Of a stretch of DNA of 59,144 nt, positions 21,934 through 54,524 are shown piece after piece. The stretch's first letter is position 1, and each line of letters opens with the position of its first letter. Source of the DNA: Nitrospirota bacterium (GTDB lineage: Bacteria > Nitrospirota > Thermodesulfovibrionia > Thermodesulfovibrionales > Dissulfurispiraceae); NCBI GenBank assembly GCA_004321915.1, contig SCQE01000074.1, positions 1-59,144 of the forward strand, read 5' to 3'. The notes under the pieces are model-generated. The model made no database searches. It was not told where the DNA came from and was given only the letters and a program-made list of their open reading frames with translations. Both the position numbers and the translations under genes were made by a program.

Positions 21934-23052
21934 CTATTTTGAATCGATAAACCGCCGACGGATTATACGCCGCTCGATTAACAGCGATAAAAAATATAAA
22001 GGCCCGCCTATAACTACAAGCAGCCCTCCGAAAATTACGAACAGGACCCCGTGGTCCTTGACCGCTTCTATCATCACCCAGAAAATAGGCTGTTTGACCT
22101 CGACCGTAATCCCGTCTATTTCAAACAGGTCTCTTGTATGCAGTTCTTTTACGACCATTTCGTCCTTATAGACCTTTATGCCGTAAAGCGGCTTTGTTAT
22201 GTCTATTGTTTCAATAAGCTCCATCTGTATCTTGTAAGGATGCCCCGGCAGGTTAAAAGTATCGCTGTTTCCGGGCGATATGATCCTTAGAGGAATGTAT
22301 CCCTCATCCTTCTTGTCCCCCTCATGAGAAATAATAAGCCCCGGCGCAAGCCCGAAATTAAGGATATGCATATATGTATTGCCTATTTTAGCAGGGGGAA
22401 ATGCGCCTATATCATACAGCTTCATTTGCGGATCGGCAACGGTCACCTTGGGCTCATGCGCAAAAATCAGGTTATTATCCTTTCTGTCGACTCTATCTTC
22501 ACCGATTCCGGGTTTTATCCGTCTAACAGTCAACTCCTGCGCGCTCCAAGCTGGTTTTATTTTATGCCCCTCGGCAATCATAATCCATTCAAAGCCGCGT
22601 TCCGTAATGCTTATGTAAAAACCTGTCAGAAAGAGCATCAGGCCCAACGGCAACATAAGACGCCCGATCACAAATACTAAGAAATTCACAAGCAAAGCCC
22701 CCTCACCCTCGCCCTCTCCCGCGAGTGGAGAGGGTTGTATTAGTTCCCCTCCCTTGAGGGGAGGGGATGAAGGGGAGGGTGATTTGTGCGGCTTTGTTAA
22801 GTTATATCTTAGTAAAATCCCACGCCCGATAAAATGCGCCGCATCGGCGACGATCCGGAGATAACCGCAAACAATAAACAGAACAAACGGTATCTGATAA
22901 AGCGGTTTATGCTTAAGATCCATAACAAAGTGGGCAAAAGACTCTTGGTTCCATACGGAAAGCACGATATAGTAAGCCGCCCACAAACCGAAAAGCAGGA
23001 ACAGAAGCCGCTTTGAAGACAAGATATCGAAGATCTTTCTCAATAAGCTCAT
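21934..23052 (-). CDS. ResB-like membrane protein of the iron-transport operon, with an in-frame repeat insertion
   Basis: The 372-residue protein has two helices near the N-terminus, a third after the inserted segment, a periplasmic beta domain (about 165-330) with ILNFGLAPGLIISHEG and LYGIKVYKDEMVV, and a last helix with a basic tail. This resembles ResB/Ccs1-type proteins, though the match is loose. ATG 23052 overlaps the previous stop (ATGA), so it is the last gene of the iron operon. Residues about 95-140 are encoded by a 136-bp repeat (22677-22812), giving the low-complexity stretch with SPSPSSPPLKGGE and SPLAGEGEGEG between two membrane helices. A role in reducing or handling haem/iron outside the membrane is inference. 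Confidence 0.6.
   Translation of the reverse strand: MSLLRKIFDILSSKRLLFLLFGLWAAYYIVLSVWNQESFAHFVMDLKHKPLYQIPFVLFIVCGYLRIVADAAHFIGRGILLRYNLTKPHKSPSPSSPPLKGGELIQPSPLAGEGEGEGALLVNFLVFVIGRLMLPLGLMLFLTGFYISITERGFEWIMIAEGHKIKPAWSAQELTVRRIKPGIGEDRVDRKDNNLIFAHEPKVTVADPQMKLYDIGAFPPAKIGNTYMHILNFGLAPGLIISHEGDKKDEGYIPLRIISPGNSDTFNLPGHPYKIQMELIETIDITKPLYGIKVYKDEMVVKELHTRDLFEIDGITVEVKQPIFWVMIEAVKDHGVLFVIFGGLLVVIGGPLYFLSLLIERRIIRRRFIDSK
22677..22812. mobile_element. 136-bp non-autonomous element (palindrome-pair MITE), copy A, inside a gene
   Basis: The copy begins CTAAG and ends CTTAG, and is flanked by TA on both sides. Its 23-bp ends are imperfect inverted repeats (about 15 of 23 match). Inside are two G/C-rich palindromes in opposite orientation, around GCGAGTGGAG and CTTGAGGGGAGG. 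It is 134/136 identical to copy B at 54325-54460. Element plus duplicated TA is 138 bp, 46 codons, and the host reading frame stays open through it. Confidence 0.88.
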
Positions 23053-25089: not shown

Positions 25090-25105
25090 ATCGCTCCTCT
25101 ATTTA

Positions 25106-25238
25106 GAGTCTGTCCATAAACTCTGTTCTCTCGTCTGTCATTCCCGAAGTTCTTAATCGGGAATCCAGTGTTTTCAAGGTGTTCTGGATCCCCGGGTCAA
25201 GCCCGAGGATGACAACTGCTTAATTTATAGACAGACTC
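25106..25238. mobile_element. 133-bp TIR element (MITE), copy 1, inside the iron operon
   Basis: Left end GAGTCTGTCCATAAA; right end is its reverse complement with one mismatch (TTTATAGACAGACTC). Flanked by TA on both sides, as for Tc1/IS630-type transposition. The core contains GTCATTCCCGAAG and GGGAATCCAGTG hairpins. Lies 3 bp after the stop of the second permease and 16 bp before the ATPase start. Nearly identical copies at 28676-28808 and 38659-38791. Confidence 0.92.
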
Positions 25239-25241
25239 TAT

Positions 25242-26327
25242 CTAATCACCCCGCAGAATTGCGGCAGAATTATATTTCAAGGCGCCTCTTACCGGTATCA
25301 GACTTGAAAATACGGACACGGCAACCCCGATAGAAACAGCTGCCCCGAAAATATAAAAGGGAATGTTTACGAACGAATTGAACGCGCCTTTCGAAACAGC
25401 CTGAATTACTGCAAACCCTATTATAAAACCCCCTATTCCGCCGCAGAGACCTATAAAGACCGCTTCAACTTTATAAAAGAGACCAATTTCCTTCTTTGTA
25501 GCGCCTATTGCCTTCATAAGCCCTATCTCCTTTCTACGTTCAAGCACAGTCGCCCCCATAGTGCTTGCAACACTGACCGAAGCTGAAAATAGGACCACTA
25601 TGGTGATAAGGGCCAGCAATAGCTGGATCTTTTGAAGCAGCAAGTCCTCTGCAACAGCAACTTGGCGCATGGTCTTTACTGAAACGTCTTTAAAGTCCCT
25701 TTTGATATTCGCAACAACGGCATCGAGCGCGCCGGGCATACCCCTTACCAGAACGGCGCTTACTTTCGGAGCAAGGCCTGTAATGCTCCATAAATCCGGA
25801 AGAGACAAGATAAAGGCATTGTCCTCATTTCCTCCCATCTCTACAAAACCCGCCACTAAAAATTCCTTGCCGGGACCGCTGTTTCCCTGACCGACAAGCT
25901 TTATCCTTTTACCCGCTTCGAGTTTCAACGCGCTCTTTAAATTTATACCTACAAGTATTTCTCCCTGCTCCTTCGGCCAGTTGCCCGATAGCCGCCAGCC
26001 TCTTCCTTTTATCTGTTGGAAGTCCAGTCCCACGGACTCAAAAGACATATTTTCAAAAACAACGTTCGCCATAAGTTGAGAAGTCGCTTCCTCCACATTC
26101 GACATGGCAGATATGCGCGCTCCAAAATCTTCAGTCAAATACGCCCCTGCTTCGGTATAGACCACGATGTTCGCTCCATAGGCCCTCAGTTCCGTTCCCA
26201 GCTTTTCCCTTATTCCAACAGTAATCCCCAGTAGACCTGTAATCGCGGTGACCGCCAAAACAACGGCAAAAGAGGCTATGGCAACGCGGCCTTTTCTTTC
26301 GGAAATAGATTTTTTAAAAAAGACCAT
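25242..26327 (-). CDS. FtsX/MacB-type ABC permease, second of pair
   Basis: The protein has 361 residues: an N-terminal helix (about 15-35), a large periplasmic MacB_PCD-like domain (about 40-230) and three C-terminal helices, with ASTMGATVLERRKEIGLMKAIGATKKEIGLFYKVEAVFIG, the typical FtsX coupling region. ATG 26327 is preferred since MVFFKKSISERKGR aligns with the start of the sister permease. A GTG at 26354 with AAGGGG upstream and GTGA overlap is a real alternative. The pair with 26351-27598 corresponds to Cj1661/Cj1662 of the p19 system, thought to act with the periplasmic iron protein. The stop is TAG three bases from a MITE. Confidence 0.87.
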   Translation of the reverse strand: MVFFKKSISERKGRVAIASFAVVLAVTAITGLLGITVGIREKLGTELRAYGANIVVYTEAGAYLTEDFGARISAMSNVEEATSQLMANVVFENMSFESVGLDFQQIKGRGWRLSGNWPKEQGEILVGINLKSALKLEAGKRIKLVGQGNSGPGKEFLVAGFVEMGGNEDNAFILSLPDLWSITGLAPKVSAVLVRGMPGALDAVVANIKRDFKDVSVKTMRQVAVAEDLLLQKIQLLLALITIVVLFSASVSVASTMGATVLERRKEIGLMKAIGATKKEIGLFYKVEAVFIGLCGGIGGFIIGFAVIQAVSKGAFNSFVNIPFYIFGAAVSIGVAVSVFSSLIPVRGALKYNSAAILRGD

Positions 26328-28468: not shown

Positions 28469-28675
28469 TATCTTTGCCCTCCTTCTTCCAAACTCGATAA
28501 TATTATATGCAAGATACATTCCTGATTTTATTATTTCGTTTTTTATTTAGCATTTCAGCAAATATTCTTAAAAATCAATAGGCAAACAAGCAAGTTATTT
28601 TTTAGCATTCATTAATGAAACAAAAACATATTGCGTGTTTTCACACAGCACTGATGAAAAACTCATTGTTATATA

Positions 28676-28808
28676 TTGTCTGTACATAAACTCTGTTCTT
28701 TCTTCTGTCATTCCCGAAGTTTTTAATCGGGAATCCAGTGTTTTCAATATGTTCTGGATCCCCGGGTCAAGCCCGAGGATGACGACTGCTTACTTTATGG
28801 ACAGACCC
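28676..28808. mobile_element. 133-bp TIR element (MITE), copy 2, intergenic
   Basis: Same length as copies 1 and 3. Ends are TTGTCTGTACATAAA and TTTATGGACAGACCC, both with TA outside. The termini have drifted more than in the other two copies, so this is likely the oldest insertion. It lies in the 464-bp gap between two cytochrome genes; the rest of that gap is AT-rich with no gene seen. Confidence 0.9.
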
Positions 28809-28885
28809 TAATTAAGAAATGACTATGTCTCTTGTTTGGAAAATGTAATAAAAAGGAAAGTTCTTGGAATATCTGTTTATTTATC

Positions 28886-32872: not shown

Positions 32873-32937
32873 ATAATCACCTCACAGTTCAAATTATTAT
32901 ACGTCAGTTGAACCACATAGTTCACAGAGTTTTTCAG

Positions 32938-33417
32938 CTCTTTCTCATCTTGTGTGGGTAGTTTCTTCCCCTCCCTTGAGGGGAGGGGATTGAGGGGAGG
33001 GTGTCCTATGAAGCCTCTCCCTTATTGTTTCAAGAACTCCGCTTGTATTCGTAAAAACCTCGTTATCCCAAAAACGAATAACAGTGTAGCCTTCTTTTTC
33101 AAGCCAAGCATCTCTTTGCCCGTCCTTCAGAGTTTCATCCGGCAAAGCATGCTGACCGCCATCCAATTCAATAATCAGCCTTTTTTCAAGGCAAACAAAA
33201 TCGGCAATATACTTTCCAATAGGGTGCTGCCGTCTAAACCTCATACCTTCAAAACGGCCTGCCCGCAAACGGCTCCATAACAGCAACTCCAAATCCGTTG
33301 ACCTTTTTCTCAGGCCTTTTGCAAGCTGTGTTAATCCTTTTGCCATCGATTTAATCACCCTCTCCCTCCCCTCTCACCTCAAGGGAGAGGAACTTACCCA
33401 CTTGAAGTGAGAAAGAA
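32938..33417. mobile_element. candidate mobile unit: DUF559 nuclease gene between long inverted repeats
   Basis: About 60 bp on the left (32938-33003) and 65 bp on the right (33351-33417) are imperfect inverted repeats. Reading inward both show CTTTCTCA, then GTGGGTA and TTC, then the palindrome CTCCCTTGAGG and a GGGAG-GGGTG tail. Between them is one gene, a DUF559 nuclease, whose last 20 codons lie inside the left repeat. The unit sits between the beta-barrel and NHL genes of the cytochrome cluster. The palindrome is the one found in the 136-bp element and inside the gene at 50477. Confidence 0.6.
32945..33346 (-). CDS. DUF559 endonuclease-like protein (Vsr-fold)
   Basis: The 133-residue protein is of the DUF559 type: LRKRSTDLELLLWSRLRAGRFEGMRFRRQHPIGKYIADFVC, then LIIELDGGQHA and DAWLEKEGYTVIRFWDNEV. 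The D in ADFVC, E-L-D and Q-H form a Vsr/PD-(D/E)xK-like active site, so DNA cleavage is plausible. The C-terminal tail (TPSPQSPPLKGGEE) is not conserved domain sequence but translated repeat. ATG 33346 is preferred over an in-frame GTG at 33358. DUF559 proteins often lie near such repeats in other genomes (from memory); the function is not established. Confidence 0.85.
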   Translation of the reverse strand: MAKGLTQLAKGLRKRSTDLELLLWSRLRAGRFEGMRFRRQHPIGKYIADFVCLEKRLIIELDGGQHALPDETLKDGQRDAWLEKEGYTVIRFWDNEVFTNTSGVLETIRERLHRTPSPQSPPLKGGEETTHTR

Positions 33418-33443
33418 CCAGTTAGGATAATTGCAAACCATAT

Positions 33444-35153: not shown

Positions 35154-36263
35154 CTAAAGACGCTTAATGACGGCATTCTCCCGCAGCCTCTTTTTGAGGG
35201 TATCCAACTTCTCTTTCTCCGCCTTGTCCTTAAGCTCTTTGTGGAGTTTGTTTTTTATCTCGGCAAAAGGCACCTGCCTTTCAGGCCTCTTTTCTTCCAC
35301 CCGTATGATGTGATACCCCATTTCGGTTTCCATTATGCCGCTCATCTGGCCTATAGGCAGGGAGAACGCGACTTTTTCGATCTCGGGCACTGGGATCATG
35401 CCCTTATGGAGCAAACCGACATCCCCCCCTTTTACCCTGCTCGGATCGCTCGAATATTCGTAGGCTATCTTCGCAAAATCCTCACCCGCTTTGATCTTGG
35501 CGACAGCCTCTTCGATCTTTGCTTTGGCCTTTTTGTACGCCTCCTGCTGCGAAGGGTCGACCTGAACATAAATATGCCTTACCCTCACGCCTTCGGGCTG
35601 CTTGAACTTATCGAGGTTTTTTTTGTAGAAACTCTCAAGGTCCGCGTCGCTGTAAACCATCGTAACTTCCTGCTTGTAAAGCGCCGCAACCAAAAAGTCC
35701 TTCTCTATTCTCAACATCAAGGAATCTTTGGTCAGTCCGGAATTTTTAAGGGCAGTTTCAAAGGTCTTCCTAGAAGAGTAGGAAGAGCGCGTAATATCAT
35801 AAATCCTCTTCACTTCTTTCTTATCGGCCTTAAGCCCGAGTCTTTTCGCCTCCTGATAAAACAACTCCCTGTATATCAGGCTCTCTATCGCCTTTTCCTC
35901 CACCTCTTTCATCTTCTCTTCGCTCATGCTCCGGTGATACGATTCGAGGGGGACAAGTTTGTTTACCTCTATCAAAATATCGCCCCTGTTTATCGGAGCA
36001 TCATTGACCAAAACAGCGGACTTGAACATGTCCTGTTCCTGCGGCTGTTCTTCCGCGGGAGATGTTCCCGCGAAAAACAACCCTGATAAAACAAATACGA
36101 TCAATATCAGCTTAGTAAGGAAACCATAAGCAAAGCCGCATTCATTGTCATTGCCCGACTTGATCAGGCAATCCAGAACACCTTGAAAACACTGGATTCC
36201 CGCCTTCGCGGGAATGACGGCACATGATGTCTTACTTATGGCCTTGTTAGTATATATTTTCAT
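35154..36263 (-). CDS. parvulin-type peptidyl-prolyl isomerase (SurA/PpiC-like), with repeat-derived N-terminal insertion
   Basis: The 369-residue protein has a SurA-like N-terminal helical region (about 85-205) and a PpiC rotamase domain (about 210-310: VRVRHIYVQVDPSQQ, AGEDFAKIAYEYSSDPSRVKGGDVGLLHKGMIP, MGYHIIRVEEKRP). It should help outer-membrane proteins fold in the periplasm. ATG 36263 overlaps the stop of the NHL lipoprotein gene (ATGA). Residues about 15-40 (VIPAKAGIQCFQGVLDCLIK) are encoded by a repeat of the same core as the 133-bp elements, so the true signal-peptide core (LTKLILIVFVLSGLFFAG) starts only near residue 50. Whether export survives this long n-region is open. Confidence 0.87.
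   Translation of the reverse strand: MKIYTNKAISKTSCAVIPAKAGIQCFQGVLDCLIKSGNDNECGFAYGFLTKLILIVFVLSGLFFAGTSPAEEQPQEQDMFKSAVLVNDAPINRGDILIEVNKLVPLESYHRSMSEEKMKEVEEKAIESLIYRELFYQEAKRLGLKADKKEVKRIYDITRSSYSSRKTFETALKNSGLTKDSLMLRIEKDFLVAALYKQEVTMVYSDADLESFYKKNLDKFKQPEGVRVRHIYVQVDPSQQEAYKKAKAKIEEAVAKIKAGEDFAKIAYEYSSDPSRVKGGDVGLLHKGMIPVPEIEKVAFSLPIGQMSGIMETEMGYHIIRVEEKRPERQVPFAEIKNKLHKELKDKAEKEKLDTLKKRLRENAVIKRL
36147..36219. repeat. core of the 133-bp repeat family, within the parvulin gene
   Basis: GTCATTCCCGCGAAGGCGGG and CCAGTGTTTTCAAGGTG on the minus strand match the interior of the 133-bp elements, without their terminal inverted repeats. It encodes VIPAKAGIQ, a peptide typical of such repeats read in one frame. 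Confidence 0.8.
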
Positions 36264-38288: not shown

Positions 38289-38658
38289 TTTCCTTACCCT
38301 CCTTATTTATTCGATATTAAAATTTAAATCCTTATTAATTTTTAACCTCTTTACTTCCCCAACCCCCGTTCCTTCATCACCTTCCTTATATTTTTTTTCA
38401 AACTGATTAATAATTAACTTGCAAATATTATGCCATCTAAAAAACAACCTACCAACAAGAAAAAAGCAACTCTGCAAATGTAAACAACAACCTATTAACA
38501 CCTTATTTTCAGCAAGTTGCACCAAAAACATAGAAAAGAACAGGCACTATACTATAAATACCCGTGATGCCAGAAAAACCCACACTGCGCAATATCACAC
38601 ACCCAAAGCAAGTCAAAAAGCCTGATATCCTGTAAACTTTCATCTCTCCCGTTACTTA
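38289..38658. other. AT-rich leader/intergenic region upstream of the tetrahaem cytochrome
   Basis: This 370-bp region precedes the cytochrome on the minus strand. It contains a possible -10 TATAGT near 38552 (minus strand, TTTATAGTATAG) with no good -35, and an A-rich leader. No reading frame worth calling. The region ends at MITE copy 3. Confidence 0.35.
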
Positions 38659-38791
38659 GAGTCTGTCCATAAACTCTGTTTTTTCGTCTGTCATTCCCGA
38701 AGTCCTTAATCGGGAATCCAGTGTCTCCAATATGTTCTGGATCCCCGGGTCAAGCCCGAGGATGACGACTGCTTACTTTATGGACAGACTC
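38659..38791. mobile_element. 133-bp TIR element (MITE), copy 3, forming the stop codon of the neighbouring gene
   Basis: It has perfect 15-bp terminal inverted repeats, GAGTCTGTCCATAAA and TTTATGGACAGACTC, with TA at 38657-38658 and 38792-38793. The stop codon (TAG) of the GT-C/TPR gene on the minus strand consists of the right TA plus the first base of the element. Perfect ends suggest recent insertion. Confidence 0.93.
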
Positions 38792-41229
38792 TACTTAGCG
38801 GAAATCCTCGCCAGCTCCTCTTTGGCCCTCCTTGAATAATATCCTGAAGGCTCCAACCTCAGGTATTCCTGCCAGTTTTCTTTTGCGAGGTCCTGCCTTC
38901 CGAGGTTTCTGTAGACAAGGGCAAGCCCGTAGTAGGCGTTTGCAAACGAGCGGTCCGTTTCAATGGCCCTTTTATGATACTGCAAAGCCTTCTCGTAGTT
39001 GTTGATATCAAAATAGATGAAACCGAGATTGCAGTAAGGGGCGGGGTTTGACGGGTTTATGCGTATAGACCGGTTGTACTCATCTATCGCCTCCTTAAAC
39101 CTTCCGCTTATATAAGCATCGGCGCCTCTTTTAAAGTGGACCTCAGCTTTGTCGTTATTCATAGCGTTGAGATACGCCTGCTCGGTCTTCCGGACCTCGT
39201 CGCCCATTTCGAGCTCTTTGTATAGAGAAAGCAGCAGCAGGTAAGCGTTAAGAAAATTAGGATTGACGTCCAACGCTTCTTTCAGATACTTGACCGCCAA
39301 GGCCTTGTCCCCTTTTTGTATATAAACAAGGGCAAAGTTATACAAAGTCGCGGGGTTCCGTTCAAATTCCAGTGCGAGTTTATAAAAACGCACTGCATCA
39401 TCGTAATTGCCGAGCTTGTAATAGGCAAAGGCAATACCGTAATACGCCGTAACTATATGACTTACACGCATGTGCTTCCGCACTTTACCGAAAGCTTCGA
39501 CCGCCTTCTTGTATTCTCCGACATGGTTATACACCTGTCCCAGCAAAGCGTAAGCCCGCGAAGACCCGGTCTCTCTTATGTTTCTCTCGATGTCCGAAAT
39601 AAGCCCTTGCGTTGATATTCCATTCTGGAGCCTCTTCTTCAGACCGTACTCGCCGTTAGAGGGCAGTACGAACCTGTATTCGTCGGCCCCTATCACAGAT
39701 TCGTATTTGCCTCCTCTTTTCAGGTATAAAAGAGAATTGTCGTCCCAATAAACCAGCGCCCAGTTGCTGCTCATAAGCGCGGCGTCCTGTTCGCCGAAGA
39801 CCTCCGGTGAACTTTCCTGAAAAACAGGCGGTTCGATCAAAATAGCGTCAAAACCGTATTTCCTTTCGAGTTCATCCATAACAAGCTCGTTCATACGCGC
39901 GCGCTCGGCCTTTTCGAGAAGGCCCTGCGATGCCAAGCCTCTCCCGTCCACAAAGGCCCGTCTTTTGGGGAAATCCCTCCATGTTATGTATCCGCCCCAG
40001 TGGAACTGATTAAGGACCTTCCCTTCTATGCCGCGTTTGTCCATATACGAGAGGGCCCCTTCAGGCGTATAAAAATGGTTGGCCCCGAAACCAAAACTCT
40101 TTTCAGGATCTCCAAAAGGTCCAACGGCAAAAACAGTCAGCGCCGGATAAACGGCCATCCAAAAAATCACAGCGCCCTGAAAAATCTTGTGGCGCAAAAT
40201 TTTCAGGGTTTCGGGGTCATCGAGAAAACATGACAAATTTCTGGCTATAAGGGGGCCGGCGACGATAGCGAGAACAAAAACAAACCTCAGCGCAGTGAAG
40301 CCCAAATAAACGAAAGGCAGCGCAAGCAGAAAATGCGTCAAAGAAAAACGCTTATAGTTGACGGCAAACGAAAGGGCCAAGATCAAGGTAAGGATGTAAG
40401 GCGTCTTTGACAACTCCCACGTAGGCCTCTTTAATTCGATAATCTCTTGGGTCCACCAGTCTGAAGACAAGACTCCGGCGCCTGAGGTGAACTGAAAAAC
40501 AGAATACGGACTTACCAAGGAACACAAAAGAGACGCGGCGAAAACGGCTGTCATGATAAGGGTCCGTTTTTTCAATGCGCTGTCTTTGAATACAGCGCTC
40601 CTTTCGCTCAAAAACCCTTCAATAACATCCCCGCAGATAAAGGCAACAAAAGGCACGGACATAAGAGTGATGCTAGGATGCATGTTGGCCCATATTACGC
40701 TCATGACCGGGATTGCGTACAAATATTTCTTGTTTTCGTATCTATAGGCGTTCAGCGCAAAAACAGTGAACGGTAAAAATATCATGAGAAAAGTGTCGGG
40801 CCTCTCCACAAACCTGTGTCTCGATACCAAGACAATAACGGTAAGGACAACGGCGGCCAGCATCCGGTTCCTGTAAGGCTTGATCGAGTCCTCGAAAAGA
40901 ATAAAGAAAGCCAGCGTCACGATCAAGGCCTTGAACAGTATAACGCCGTAAATGCCCGCAAAATGATACGGGAGGTAGTAAACCAGCCCGAACAACCATG
41001 AAGCATACCTGAACGGCTCATCCGGGTCCGCAAATAAAAAAGGCTCGGTCTTCGGGATGCCTTTCAGCTCGTAGATGACCTTGCCGATGCTGAGATGCGT
41101 CCATGCATCGGTGTCTTCGACTTTATTCAATGCAAGCAGGAAAACCGAAAGCAGAAATAAAAACAACAGGAGGCGCTGCATCCATATGTTTTCAGGCATC
41201 GTGACTGTCCCGCTCTCTGTCGAATTCAT
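38791..41229 (-). CDS. polytopic GT-C-like protein with C-terminal TPR repeats
   Basis: The 812-residue protein has about 11 membrane helices in residues 15-380. The loop after the first helix holds EDTDAWTHLSIGKVI, an acidic-H pattern like that of GT-C glycosyltransferases. A soluble region follows, then at least five TPR units (about 550-800: AYALLGQVYNHVGEYKKAVEAFGK, YNFALVYIQKGDKALAVKYLKEAL, PYCNLGFIYFDINNYEKALQYHKRAI, AYYGLALVYRNLGRQDLAKENW). It is at the end of the glycan cluster and would transfer a sugar from a lipid donor outside the membrane; substrate unknown. The stop lies in a MITE end, so the original C-terminus may have been altered. Confidence 0.8.
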   Translation of the reverse strand: MNSTESGTVTMPENIWMQRLLLFLFLLSVFLLALNKVEDTDAWTHLSIGKVIYELKGIPKTEPFLFADPDEPFRYASWLFGLVYYLPYHFAGIYGVILFKALIVTLAFFILFEDSIKPYRNRMLAAVVLTVIVLVSRHRFVERPDTFLMIFLPFTVFALNAYRYENKKYLYAIPVMSVIWANMHPSITLMSVPFVAFICGDVIEGFLSERSAVFKDSALKKRTLIMTAVFAASLLCSLVSPYSVFQFTSGAGVLSSDWWTQEIIELKRPTWELSKTPYILTLILALSFAVNYKRFSLTHFLLALPFVYLGFTALRFVFVLAIVAGPLIARNLSCFLDDPETLKILRHKIFQGAVIFWMAVYPALTVFAVGPFGDPEKSFGFGANHFYTPEGALSYMDKRGIEGKVLNQFHWGGYITWRDFPKRRAFVDGRGLASQGLLEKAERARMNELVMDELERKYGFDAILIEPPVFQESSPEVFGEQDAALMSSNWALVYWDDNSLLYLKRGGKYESVIGADEYRFVLPSNGEYGLKKRLQNGISTQGLISDIERNIRETGSSRAYALLGQVYNHVGEYKKAVEAFGKVRKHMRVSHIVTAYYGIAFAYYKLGNYDDAVRFYKLALEFERNPATLYNFALVYIQKGDKALAVKYLKEALDVNPNFLNAYLLLLSLYKELEMGDEVRKTEQAYLNAMNNDKAEVHFKRGADAYISGRFKEAIDEYNRSIRINPSNPAPYCNLGFIYFDINNYEKALQYHKRAIETDRSFANAYYGLALVYRNLGRQDLAKENWQEYLRLEPSGYYSRRAKEELARISAK

Positions 41230-50476: not shown

Positions 50477-52462
50477 CTACGGCCTTCTCCTTATCGAAAT
50501 CTCACTCGATTTCATGCAGGCGTCTGCGATGCCTAATCCGCATGCCTTATCAAAATCCGGCGCGGCCATATCAAACCGTTTTGCCTTGTAAAAACTCAAT
50601 CCCCTGTTATAATGGCCTTCGGCAAACTCGCCTCCGGTCACCCTGATCAGATCGATGGCGGCCGTATAGTCCGAAACAGCCTTATCGTACTGTCCTGACA
50701 ACAGATATACATTACCCCTGTTATTATACGCATCCGCAAAATCCGGCCTCAGCGAAATAGCGTTGGTGTAATCCGCTATGGCCATGTTATTGTTGCCGAG
50801 TTGAGAATACACAAAAGCCCTGTTGTAATAAGCAGGAACGAATGCCGGATTCAATTTCAAGGCGCTTTCGAAATCCGAGACCGCGTTCGTCAGCCCCCCT
50901 GTACGGGCAAAAAGCAGTCCCCTGTTATTGTATGATATATAAAAGTCGGGATTCAGCTTTAAAGCAGAATCAAAGCTTATAAGCGCCCTGTCATATATTT
51001 CACGCCGGTAATAGGCTGTTCCTAAAAAATCGTGTCCCCTCACCTTATTGGGGCTTTTGGATACGACATCCTGCCAGAGGGAGAGATCGCTCTGCCACAC
51101 ACGGTTCCTCATGTGCGAAGCAATTCCCAGCGTTGCCACAAGCAAAACCATAAATACCATCACGGCTTTTCGAAACGGGCCCCATTCACCCGCCCCTTCA
51201 TCCCCACCCCTCAAGGGCGGGGAACTTATATAAAAAACCAGACTCACAAACCCTATAACAAACCCCACGGACGGATAATACAGCCTGTGCTCATATATCA
51301 CGTCGACTATCGGTATCATTCCGGATTCCACCAGATGCGCTATTACATACCACAATATTCCGAACGATACTATCCTCAGCCCCTCACGGCCTTCCTCCCC
51401 AGATGCCTTCCAAAGATACAATGCAAATGCCATCAATCCCGCCAACATTAAAAACGACAGTATCACTTCCGCATTTAAAAAACTCTTATGCACAGGATAG
51501 TCGTAGTCGAGGTTCTGCCCCACAGGAACGAACAGAAGCCTCAGATACGTCGCCATCACCCTGAACTCGGTAAACAGATAATCGGCCCTGCTTAAAGCGC
51601 TCTGCACCCTCGTAACCTGACTGGTGTCCCCGATTATCTCTCCTAACGGTTTTGCGGTGTCTATCAGACCCAGCGGGATTATCAGCATCGTCAACAGTAT
51701 AGGCACAAGCCACTTGAGTCTCTTCGATGCAGCCCCCCGATAGAACATGTATTCGTAAAGACACACTAGCAGAGGAAACGTGAACACCATTTCTTTCGTC
51801 TTCATCGCGCAGACCGAAAAAATTACACTGCCCCAGTAAAACAGCATTCCCTTGATATCTCCGCCTCTGCCTTCTTCCTGCCTTGTCCTCCATGCCCCGT
51901 AAAACACTATCGACAGCAGGCAGAACATCACTGCAAGCGACGCAAACCTCTGCACTATGTACGTCACCGCCTGCGTCTGGACAGGATGCACTGCAAATAT
52001 AATTCCGCTGAACAGCGCCGTCATCGCCGCTCCCATGTCATCCGTCGCCCTTTGACCTCTTATAACAGGCGTCCCGTATATCAGACGCACAAACAGATAC
52101 ACCAGCACACCGTTTGCCGCATGCACCGCTATGTTCACTATGTGATATCCGGACACATCGAGCCCGTGTATCCTGTAATTCAATGCAAAGCTCAGATACC
52201 CCAAATACCGGCTCTTTATCGCTTCACCGCCCACTCCCTGCAGGTTCACCGCCTTGACCCCGCCCAGATAACTCCACGGCCTCGTGAATATCCCGTCCCC
52301 CCTCAGTCCGACGTTCTCCACTATGTTAGGTATGTCGTCGAACTGAAACGGCACTCCAAGACTGTTTGCGTATACGCAAAAACTTATCAATATGATCAGA
52401 AATAGGTGGAACCAAAACCCGGCGGGGCGGAACGGCTTTTGCAAAAAATTCATGTCAGCCAT
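50477..52462 (-). CDS. TMTC-like GT-C membrane protein with TPR repeats and an in-frame palindromic repeat
   Basis: The 661-residue protein has 10-11 helices (about 10-430). The first loop has VPFQFDDIPNIVEN (D-D of GT-C enzymes), later FAVHPVQTQAVTYIVQRFASL and YEHRLYYPSVGF. These resemble the TMTC-type O-mannosyltransferase family. Five to six TPR repeats follow (GHDFLGTAYYRREIYDRALISFDSALKLNP and so on, about 455-620). Between two membrane helices the segment ISSPPLRGGDEGAGEWG is encoded by a G-rich palindromic repeat (51187-51225), inserted in frame. ATG 52462 overlaps the ABC-F stop by 8 bp; ATG 52453 is equally possible. Possibly transfers sugar to exported proteins or lipids. Confidence 0.82.
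   Translation of the reverse strand: MADMNFLQKPFRPAGFWFHLFLIILISFCVYANSLGVPFQFDDIPNIVENVGLRGDGIFTRPWSYLGGVKAVNLQGVGGEAIKSRYLGYLSFALNYRIHGLDVSGYHIVNIAVHAANGVLVYLFVRLIYGTPVIRGQRATDDMGAAMTALFSGIIFAVHPVQTQAVTYIVQRFASLAVMFCLLSIVFYGAWRTRQEEGRGGDIKGMLFYWGSVIFSVCAMKTKEMVFTFPLLVCLYEYMFYRGAASKRLKWLVPILLTMLIIPLGLIDTAKPLGEIIGDTSQVTRVQSALSRADYLFTEFRVMATYLRLLFVPVGQNLDYDYPVHKSFLNAEVILSFLMLAGLMAFALYLWKASGEEGREGLRIVSFGILWYVIAHLVESGMIPIVDVIYEHRLYYPSVGFVIGFVSLVFYISSPPLRGGDEGAGEWGPFRKAVMVFMVLLVATLGIASHMRNRVWQSDLSLWQDVVSKSPNKVRGHDFLGTAYYRREIYDRALISFDSALKLNPDFYISYNNRGLLFARTGGLTNAVSDFESALKLNPAFVPAYYNRAFVYSQLGNNNMAIADYTNAISLRPDFADAYNNRGNVYLLSGQYDKAVSDYTAAIDLIRVTGGEFAEGHYNRGLSFYKAKRFDMAAPDFDKACGLGIADACMKSSEISIRRRP
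51187..51225 (-). repeat. single G-rich palindromic repeat (REP-like) in the coding region
   Basis: On the minus strand it reads TTCCCCGCCCTTGAGGGGTG then GGGATGAAGGGGCGGGTG. It matches the right half of the 136-bp elements and the ends of the DUF559 unit. It is translated as SSPPLRGGDEGAGE in a loop between two membrane helices. Confidence 0.8.
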
Positions 52463-54317: not shown

Positions 54318-54324
54318 TAATTTA

Positions 54325-54460
54325 CTAAGGAATTCACAAGCAAAGCCCCCTCACCCTCGCCCTCTCCCGCGAGGGGAGAGGGTTGTATTAGTTCCCCTCC
54401 CTTGAGGGGAGGGGATGAAGGGGAGGGTGATTTGTGCGGCTTTGTTAAGTTATATCTTAG
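54325..54460. mobile_element. 136-bp non-autonomous element (palindrome-pair MITE), copy B, intergenic
   Basis: Identical to copy A (22677-22812) at 134 of 136 positions; differences are in GGAATTC versus GAAATTC and CGAGGGG versus CGAGTGG. The left flank is TA and the right flank CA, so one flank may have mutated. It lies between the gpmA stop and the ABC-F start, eight bases upstream of the ABC-F start codon. Its strong palindromes could affect ABC-F translation. Confidence 0.88.
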
Positions 54461-54524
54461 CAACAGCAGCCCTGAACGAAAAAAACTCAGTCTTGTCTCC
54501 AAATGCCCTGTATTCATAATTTAA

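Follow-up and report, generated by a model that had tools for sequence, protein, structure and literature searches.

A DUF559 nuclease gene between inverted intrastrand-triplex motifs: a candidate mobile unit in a Nitrospirota genome and beyond

The nuclease gene and its flanking repeats

Do a small nuclease gene and the inverted repeats on either side of it form a mobile unit, and, if so, what moves it? The locus lies in a 59,144-nucleotide stretch of DNA (the window, meaning the whole stretch that was analysed), on a contig belonging to a 3.6-Mb draft Nitrospirota genome. Its open reading frame (32945-33358, minus strand; 137 codons) matches the DUF559 profile (PF04480, E 6.2e-39) and encodes a YcjD-like PD-(D/E)XK nuclease, with the ATG at 33346 as the likely start and the GTG at 33358 as the alternative. 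The exact palindrome CTCCCTTGAGG lies on both sides of this frame, at 32971-32981 on the plus strand and 33377-33387 on the minus strand. With at most one mismatch, it has 6 matches in the window against 0.98 expected, a number that none of the shuffled sequences reached. The initial annotation had described a DUF559 gene enclosed by two inverted palindromic repeats with G-rich tails, the last codons lying inside one of them, and both observations hold: the palindrome is exact at both flanks, and the frame reads through the left repeat.

That annotation took each arm of about 60 bp as one repeat. The palindrome and tail do lie inside, but the outer part matches the terminal repeats of ISL3-family insertion sequences, and the arms are composites of an inner hairpin with a G-rich tail toward the gene (34-35 nt) and an outer box of about 26 nt. 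The inner elements are referred to below as triplex motifs (TMs). The left TM, at the downstream end of the unit, occupies 32968-33001 on the plus strand (CCCCTCCC-TTGA-GGGGAGGGG-...-GGGGAGGG), follows the mirror rule described below and corresponds to the class II purine-motif definition (PMC4666352). The right TM, at the upstream end, occupies 33356-33390 in inverted orientation on the minus strand (CCTCTCCC-TTGAG-GTGAGAGG-...-GAGAGGGTG); both copies show the hairpin and third-arm triads, the right one with one mismatched triad, and both tails point inward to the gene. The outer boxes lie at 32936-32961 on the plus strand (AGCTCTTTCTCATCTTGTGTGGGTAG) and at 33394-33419 on the minus strand (GGTTCTTTCTCACTTCAAGTGGGTAA), and the left TM and left box together encode the final 18 or so codons of the nuclease (...PSPQSPPLKGGEETTHTR).

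Arm sequences in this family vary widely, but the repeats have in common a tail that mirrors the purine arm, in which A may be faced by either A or T. Among 209 asymmetric units, a perfect 8-nt mirror arm was found in 78%, compared with 27% under a direct-repeat model; the mirror model fitted better in 117 units and the direct model in 12, far outside permutations, and on these counts a direct-repeat tail forming an alternative hairpin was rejected. The tail base was G over C:G pairs in 94% and A or T over T:A pairs in 93%, and a mirror tail of this composition follows the rule of the antiparallel purine-motif triplex. Since a pyrimidine-purine hairpin reads alike on both strands, the hairpin strand was set from the tail. 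A G-quadruplex was also rejected as the common structure, as many units have only two long G-tracts and the mirror rule applies across types. By their sequence design, the repeats are assigned to the intrastrand triplex motifs of Holder et al. 2015 (PMC4666352), which consist of a Y-arm, a loop, an R-arm, a short spacer and a third G-rich arm, and of which E. coli K-12 has 23 copies. The E. coli repeat (TM_ECO) forms a triplex in vitro by CD and NMR, and DMS footprinting detected no stable TM triplex in vivo (PMC4666352). A search of Rfam returned no match above threshold.

Two variations of the design were also observed. At the flanks of six DUF559 genes (L153, L168, L184, L194, L196 and L204), the purine arm and the tail are joined by a second hairpin in place of the short spacer, which would be expected of a linker that need only bridge the stem and the third strand. 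In addition, a G.A mismatch (CCCTCGCCC / GGGAGAGGG) is kept in many stems (L039, L055, L170, L185, L217 and others) and is reminiscent of the conserved bulge of E. coli REP; the tail carries A over this mismatch in 15 of 17 cases.

Recurrence of the unit and abundance of the repeat

The bracketing of DUF559 genes by TMs extends well outside the window. With a detector for mirror-tailed pyrimidine hairpins, 104 of 167 solo DUF559 genes proved to be bracketed by inward-pointing TMs and 147 to have such a TM on one side or both, compared with 0/207 and 5/207 for displaced control positions and with 0/30 on either count for true Vsr genes (PF03852) of the same phylum; a recognisable TM is missing at about 12% of the solo genes. 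A score that compares the upstream flank with the reverse complement of the downstream flank had a median of 19.5 across 153 distinct solo DUF559 genes drawn from the phylum and from named GTDB genomes, against medians of 10 for cross-locus pairings and 9 for displaced positions, and reached at least 14 in 81% of the genes and in 0/185 displaced controls. The units are hosted by Proteobacteria, Desulfobacterota-type MAGs, Chloroflexi, Patescibacteria and, on plasmids, Cyanobacteria, and in the genome of the window itself two further solo DUF559 genes are likewise enclosed by inverted palindromes, of a different sequence in each case. Inverted palindrome copies around DUF559 genes elsewhere, which the initial annotation had named as a check, are thus present in relatives and in other phyla. 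An unusually long arrangement was seen in Legionella anisa (L155), where near-perfect inverted repeats of about 150 bp, including a pyrimidine-rich palindrome, surround the gene.

Moreover, the TM-bounded unit recurs at unrelated sites. Its two ends resemble each other and vary in step with the encoded protein, and TM pairs built in the same way are also found without a gene. In genomes with several units, the two repeats of one gene were more alike than any pairing with a repeat from another DUF559 locus in 44 of 50 cases, and across genomes repeat similarity rose with protein identity (rho 0.51; permutation maximum 0.16). Several families have an upstream and a downstream repeat of distinct types, always in the same order (11:0 and 6:0), and pairs without a gene (e.g. 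L001 and L006) combine the same left and right types as the DUF559 units.

TMs are also dispersed genome-wide away from the nuclease gene, and their number follows its presence. In 296 genomes of the phylum, the mean number of TMs was 17.2 with DUF559 and 1.8 without, an approximately tenfold difference, and any TM was found in 73/103 DUF559-positive and 35/193 other genomes (OR 11, Fisher p 3e-19); in 20,000 family-stratified permutations the observed excess was never reached. These counts were made with an IUPAC pattern, for which the reversed-pattern control gave zero. Some of the genomes analysed carry more than 100 TMs, with 302 in one of them (G063). Two genomes have many TMs and no DUF559 match at E<=1e-15, G239 (95 TMs) and G067 (54 TMs), of which G067 is incomplete and G239 is not; the gene may have been lost there, or another disperser may have acted.

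In E. coli, inverted TM pairs without a gene also occur (Table 1, PMC4666352), and we found such pairs present or absent between near-identical flanks (e.g. fepB-entC, 521 vs 335 bp). TM motif 9 of that species lies at 1351204-1351239 (PMC4666352), and the DUF559 gene ycjD of a K-12-type strain adjoins fabI within that interval, with TMs on its downstream side only. The gene was found in about 3362 of 5426 E. coli genomes (sapF-fabI interval; L217, L222-L224). Strains without ycjD were considered as a clean empty site and set aside, as those inspected hold an efflux operon there.

Movement of the unit and competing explanations

The initial annotation had judged the unit to look like an insertion and had pointed to an empty site in a close relative as a check. 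Such a site is present in the only congener found (G001), where the neighbouring NHL-repeat gene (76% identical) and a 559-codon gene (67-70% identical) are syntenic and the 545-bp block at 32899-33443, at the same intergenic site, is replaced by about 15 bp. Likewise, a Sinorhizobium unit of about 750 bp occupies a junction between two genes that in Shinella is almost closed; either difference may reflect gain or loss. In Azospirillum the unit was at the same site in 7 of 7 records, with no empty site. Among 66 close pairs (protein identity at least 72%, flanks of at least 300 nt), the unit alone was common to both loci in 49, and homology stopped close to the outer edge of the TM, at a median distance of 6 nt on the upstream side and 3 nt on the downstream side. 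No target-site duplication of TM-ended units was found, and the sequence beyond the TM is nearly unconserved, with only T-rich positions -1/-2 and an A/T bias.

Several DUF559 paralogues that are 83-91% identical occupy different sites in G063. Two of its paralogous units (L083 and L257) have an identical insertion within the downstream TM, between purine arm and tail, which shows that both descend from one modified unit. On Deinococcus plasmids (L319 and L320), DUF559 lies beside the same type of oxidoreductase gene with the other neighbour and the order changed, and the flanking inverted repeats there are without a mirror tail.

At this particular site, the outer boxes add a further layer. 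They match the ends of a complete ISL3-family insertion sequence in G097, the right box at 25 of 26 nt (to its left inverted repeat) and the left box more weakly, as a degenerate match that extends to unit ends in G003 and G063. In G003, one copy is complete and another internally deleted, and each stops precisely at the boxes, between unrelated flanks; the full copy has near-matching 8-bp flanks (ATTAAAGA/AATAAAGA), and paralogues in G063 are flanked by the same boxes. The window feature is accordingly interpreted as a TM-DUF559-TM unit enclosed by ISL3-type ends, and because these ends lie outside the TMs, the last jump at this site may have been made by an ISL3 transposase acting in trans. 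The entire block could accordingly be a MITE-like passenger mobilised by such a transposase, with DUF559 and its TMs as mere cargo. For this one site that is considerably likelier than as a general explanation, as which we regard it as improbable: only 7 of 174 units have ISL3-like boxes at both ends, and 15 at either end, whereas TM bracketing is general, and in most moved pairs the TM itself forms the end, with no such box outside it. The block itself contains no transposase, the single ISL3 transposase gene found in the host's draft assembly does not have matching ends, and the flanks of the window copy (AGTTTTTC / AGTTAGGA) show no clear 8-bp duplication.

The nuclease itself could be another source of movement. 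To our knowledge, the DUF559/YcjD nucleases are widespread and have no function that is generally agreed on. The protein of the window has the PF04480 profile match, the PD-(D/E)XK/Vsr-like fold and the conserved acidic residues of the family, with D53, E64, D66 and H70 invariant in alignments. The best fold matches of its structural model (pLDDT 81) were 3HRL (Neisseria NGO0050; Foldseek E 2.8e-8) and I-Bth0305I, with Vsr and, more weakly, TnsA as further relatives, so that the predicted fold places it among nicking or homing nucleases. Values of dN/dS of about 0.1-0.2 for DUF559 pairs with usable dS are indicative of purifying selection on the protein. A search for a role in defence systems gave only a weak partial match to DpdF.

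A relationship to the Vsr-fold homing endonuclease I-Bth0305I, one of the closest solved relatives, raises the possibility that DUF559 is a homing-type gene that cuts pre-existing TM pairs and is copied by repair through TM homology, the TMs themselves spreading by other means; gene-less inverted pairs of the same left and right types could then be its empty targets. We consider this rather unlikely, as both empty sites found, in G001 and in Shinella, have no TMs at all, and as the covariation of protein and repeat and the tenfold TM excess suggest that the repeats travel with the gene. Far less probable still is a reading in which TMs serve the gene as regulators or terminators, or simply accompany small mobile genes in general, and contribute nothing to movement. 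One TM does overlap the 3' coding end and another lies just upstream of the start, and both are probably transcribed with the gene, but TMs are missing at Vsr genes and displaced positions of the same phylum, are dispersed genome-wide without the gene and mark the edge at which homology of the unit stops; moreover, an earlier test found such motifs to be without promoter or terminator activity (reported in PMC4666352).

We therefore favour, at a probability of roughly 0.7, the reading that the window feature is one copy of a mobile unit, consisting of a solo DUF559 nuclease gene between inverted cognate TMs with tails inward, with the nuclease presumed to act on, and to move, the TMs. We hypothesize that the nuclease recognises the folded TM, in which the mirror tail lies along the hairpin as a third strand, and that it nicks at the foot of this fold, which would probably form where replication forks expose single-stranded DNA. 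The unit, or a gene-less TM pair, would then be freed or copied and would re-enter elsewhere via host repair and ligation, which are invoked because PD-(D/E)XK enzymes hydrolyse and do not join strands. Under this scheme, DUF559 units would supply the coding members of one family, to which the TM repeats would belong as non-autonomous members. Several observations count against the mobile-unit reading: the solo genes with no recognisable TM, the downstream-only TMs of ycjD, TM-rich genomes with no strong DUF559 hit such as G239, the hydrolytic chemistry of the enzyme, the negative DMS footprinting in vivo, the failure to find target-site duplications at TM-ended units, and the ISL3-type ends as an alternative mover at this site. 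More broadly, we see an even chance that DUF559/YcjD nucleases disperse intrastrand-triplex repeats as a class of mobile element with triplex-forming ends, relying on a Vsr-fold PD-(D/E)XK enzyme and host repair and unrelated to HUH, DDE and recombinase transposases.

Relation to known systems and other repeats of the window

The parallel with REP elements and their RAYT transposases drawn in the initial annotation is apt in design, as a small gene lies between inverted, dispersed repeats. REPtrons (REP/BIME with TnpA_REP/RAYT; PMC8266576, PMC3733652) likewise combine a small gene with inverted hairpin repeats that are also dispersed alone and that come in distinct left and right types. Their enzyme, however, is an HUH/Y1 tyrosine transposase, whereas here it is a PF04480 PD-(D/E)XK nuclease, and the GTAG beside the REP palindrome has no counterpart at the positions outside the hairpin that were examined; lacking both of these defining features, the unit is set apart from REPtrons. 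In addition, the DUF559-unit repeat carries a mirror-repeat third strand, and whole units visibly move. The unit is thus REPtron-like, with a different enzyme and a triplex-type repeat.

Other systems share single parts of the design. The PIT/TM_ECO elements (Hoyne et al. 2000; Holder et al. 2015, PMC4666352) are the same repeat and form inverted gene-less pairs in E. coli, but Holder et al. never found mobility functions near TMs, whereas here TMs bracket DUF559 with arms that match gene by gene. I-Bth0305I (3R3P), Vsr (1VSR) and NGO0050 (3HRL) have the same nuclease fold, yet no intron, intein or methyltransferase context was seen around the gene, which instead lies between TMs. The Caulobacter protein VsrA (CCNA_02930; PMC12907096) is also a DUF559 domain protein and has been proposed to nick DNA in repair, with no repeat association reported. 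ISL3-family insertion sequences and MITEs have terminal repeats that match the outer boxes; unlike the former, the window unit has no transposase inside, and most DUF559 units have no boxes.

The candidate new mobile unit of the initial annotation accordingly stands in its core, with the qualification that the repeats belong to a known class (PMC4666352). Both the repeat class and the protein family were known, and it is their association that appears to be new: no link of DUF559, PF04480 or ycjD to repeats was found in the open-licence literature, although earlier work in other journals is possible. TM repeats occur in hundreds of bacterial genomes, and we know of no source for them so far; a package of gene and repeats could explain their spread. 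The association gives both the repeat and the nuclease a testable role, including in E. coli K-12. If the nuclease does recognise the triplex fold and spread the repeat, the REP-type strategy would have been invented a second time, independently, using another enzyme and an unusual DNA structure as the recognition signal.

Further TMs lie in the window itself. The palindrome was noted earlier as occurring alone at 51187, which proved to be a solitary TM (51187-51224, minus strand) with one mismatch in the palindrome, and as a pair in 136-bp elements. It is indeed present in the latter, but once per element of about 141 bp, beside a related but different palindrome. Two such MITE-like elements (22675-22815 and 54323-54463) lie in the window, the first with TACTAAG...CTTAGTA ends and no gene, and each has two TMs of the same repeat family. 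Several near-identical copies exist in the genome (including L002-L005), and their tails point outward, opposite to those of the DUF559 units; they make up a distinct MITE family whose members carry TM pairs. A further dispersed MITE-like repeat, of 147 nt with a CGGGAATCCAGTG core, is present in three copies (25098-25244, 28668-28814 and 38651-38797), and a partial inverted copy at 36145-36202 supplies N-terminal codons of a SurA-like open reading frame (35154-36263).
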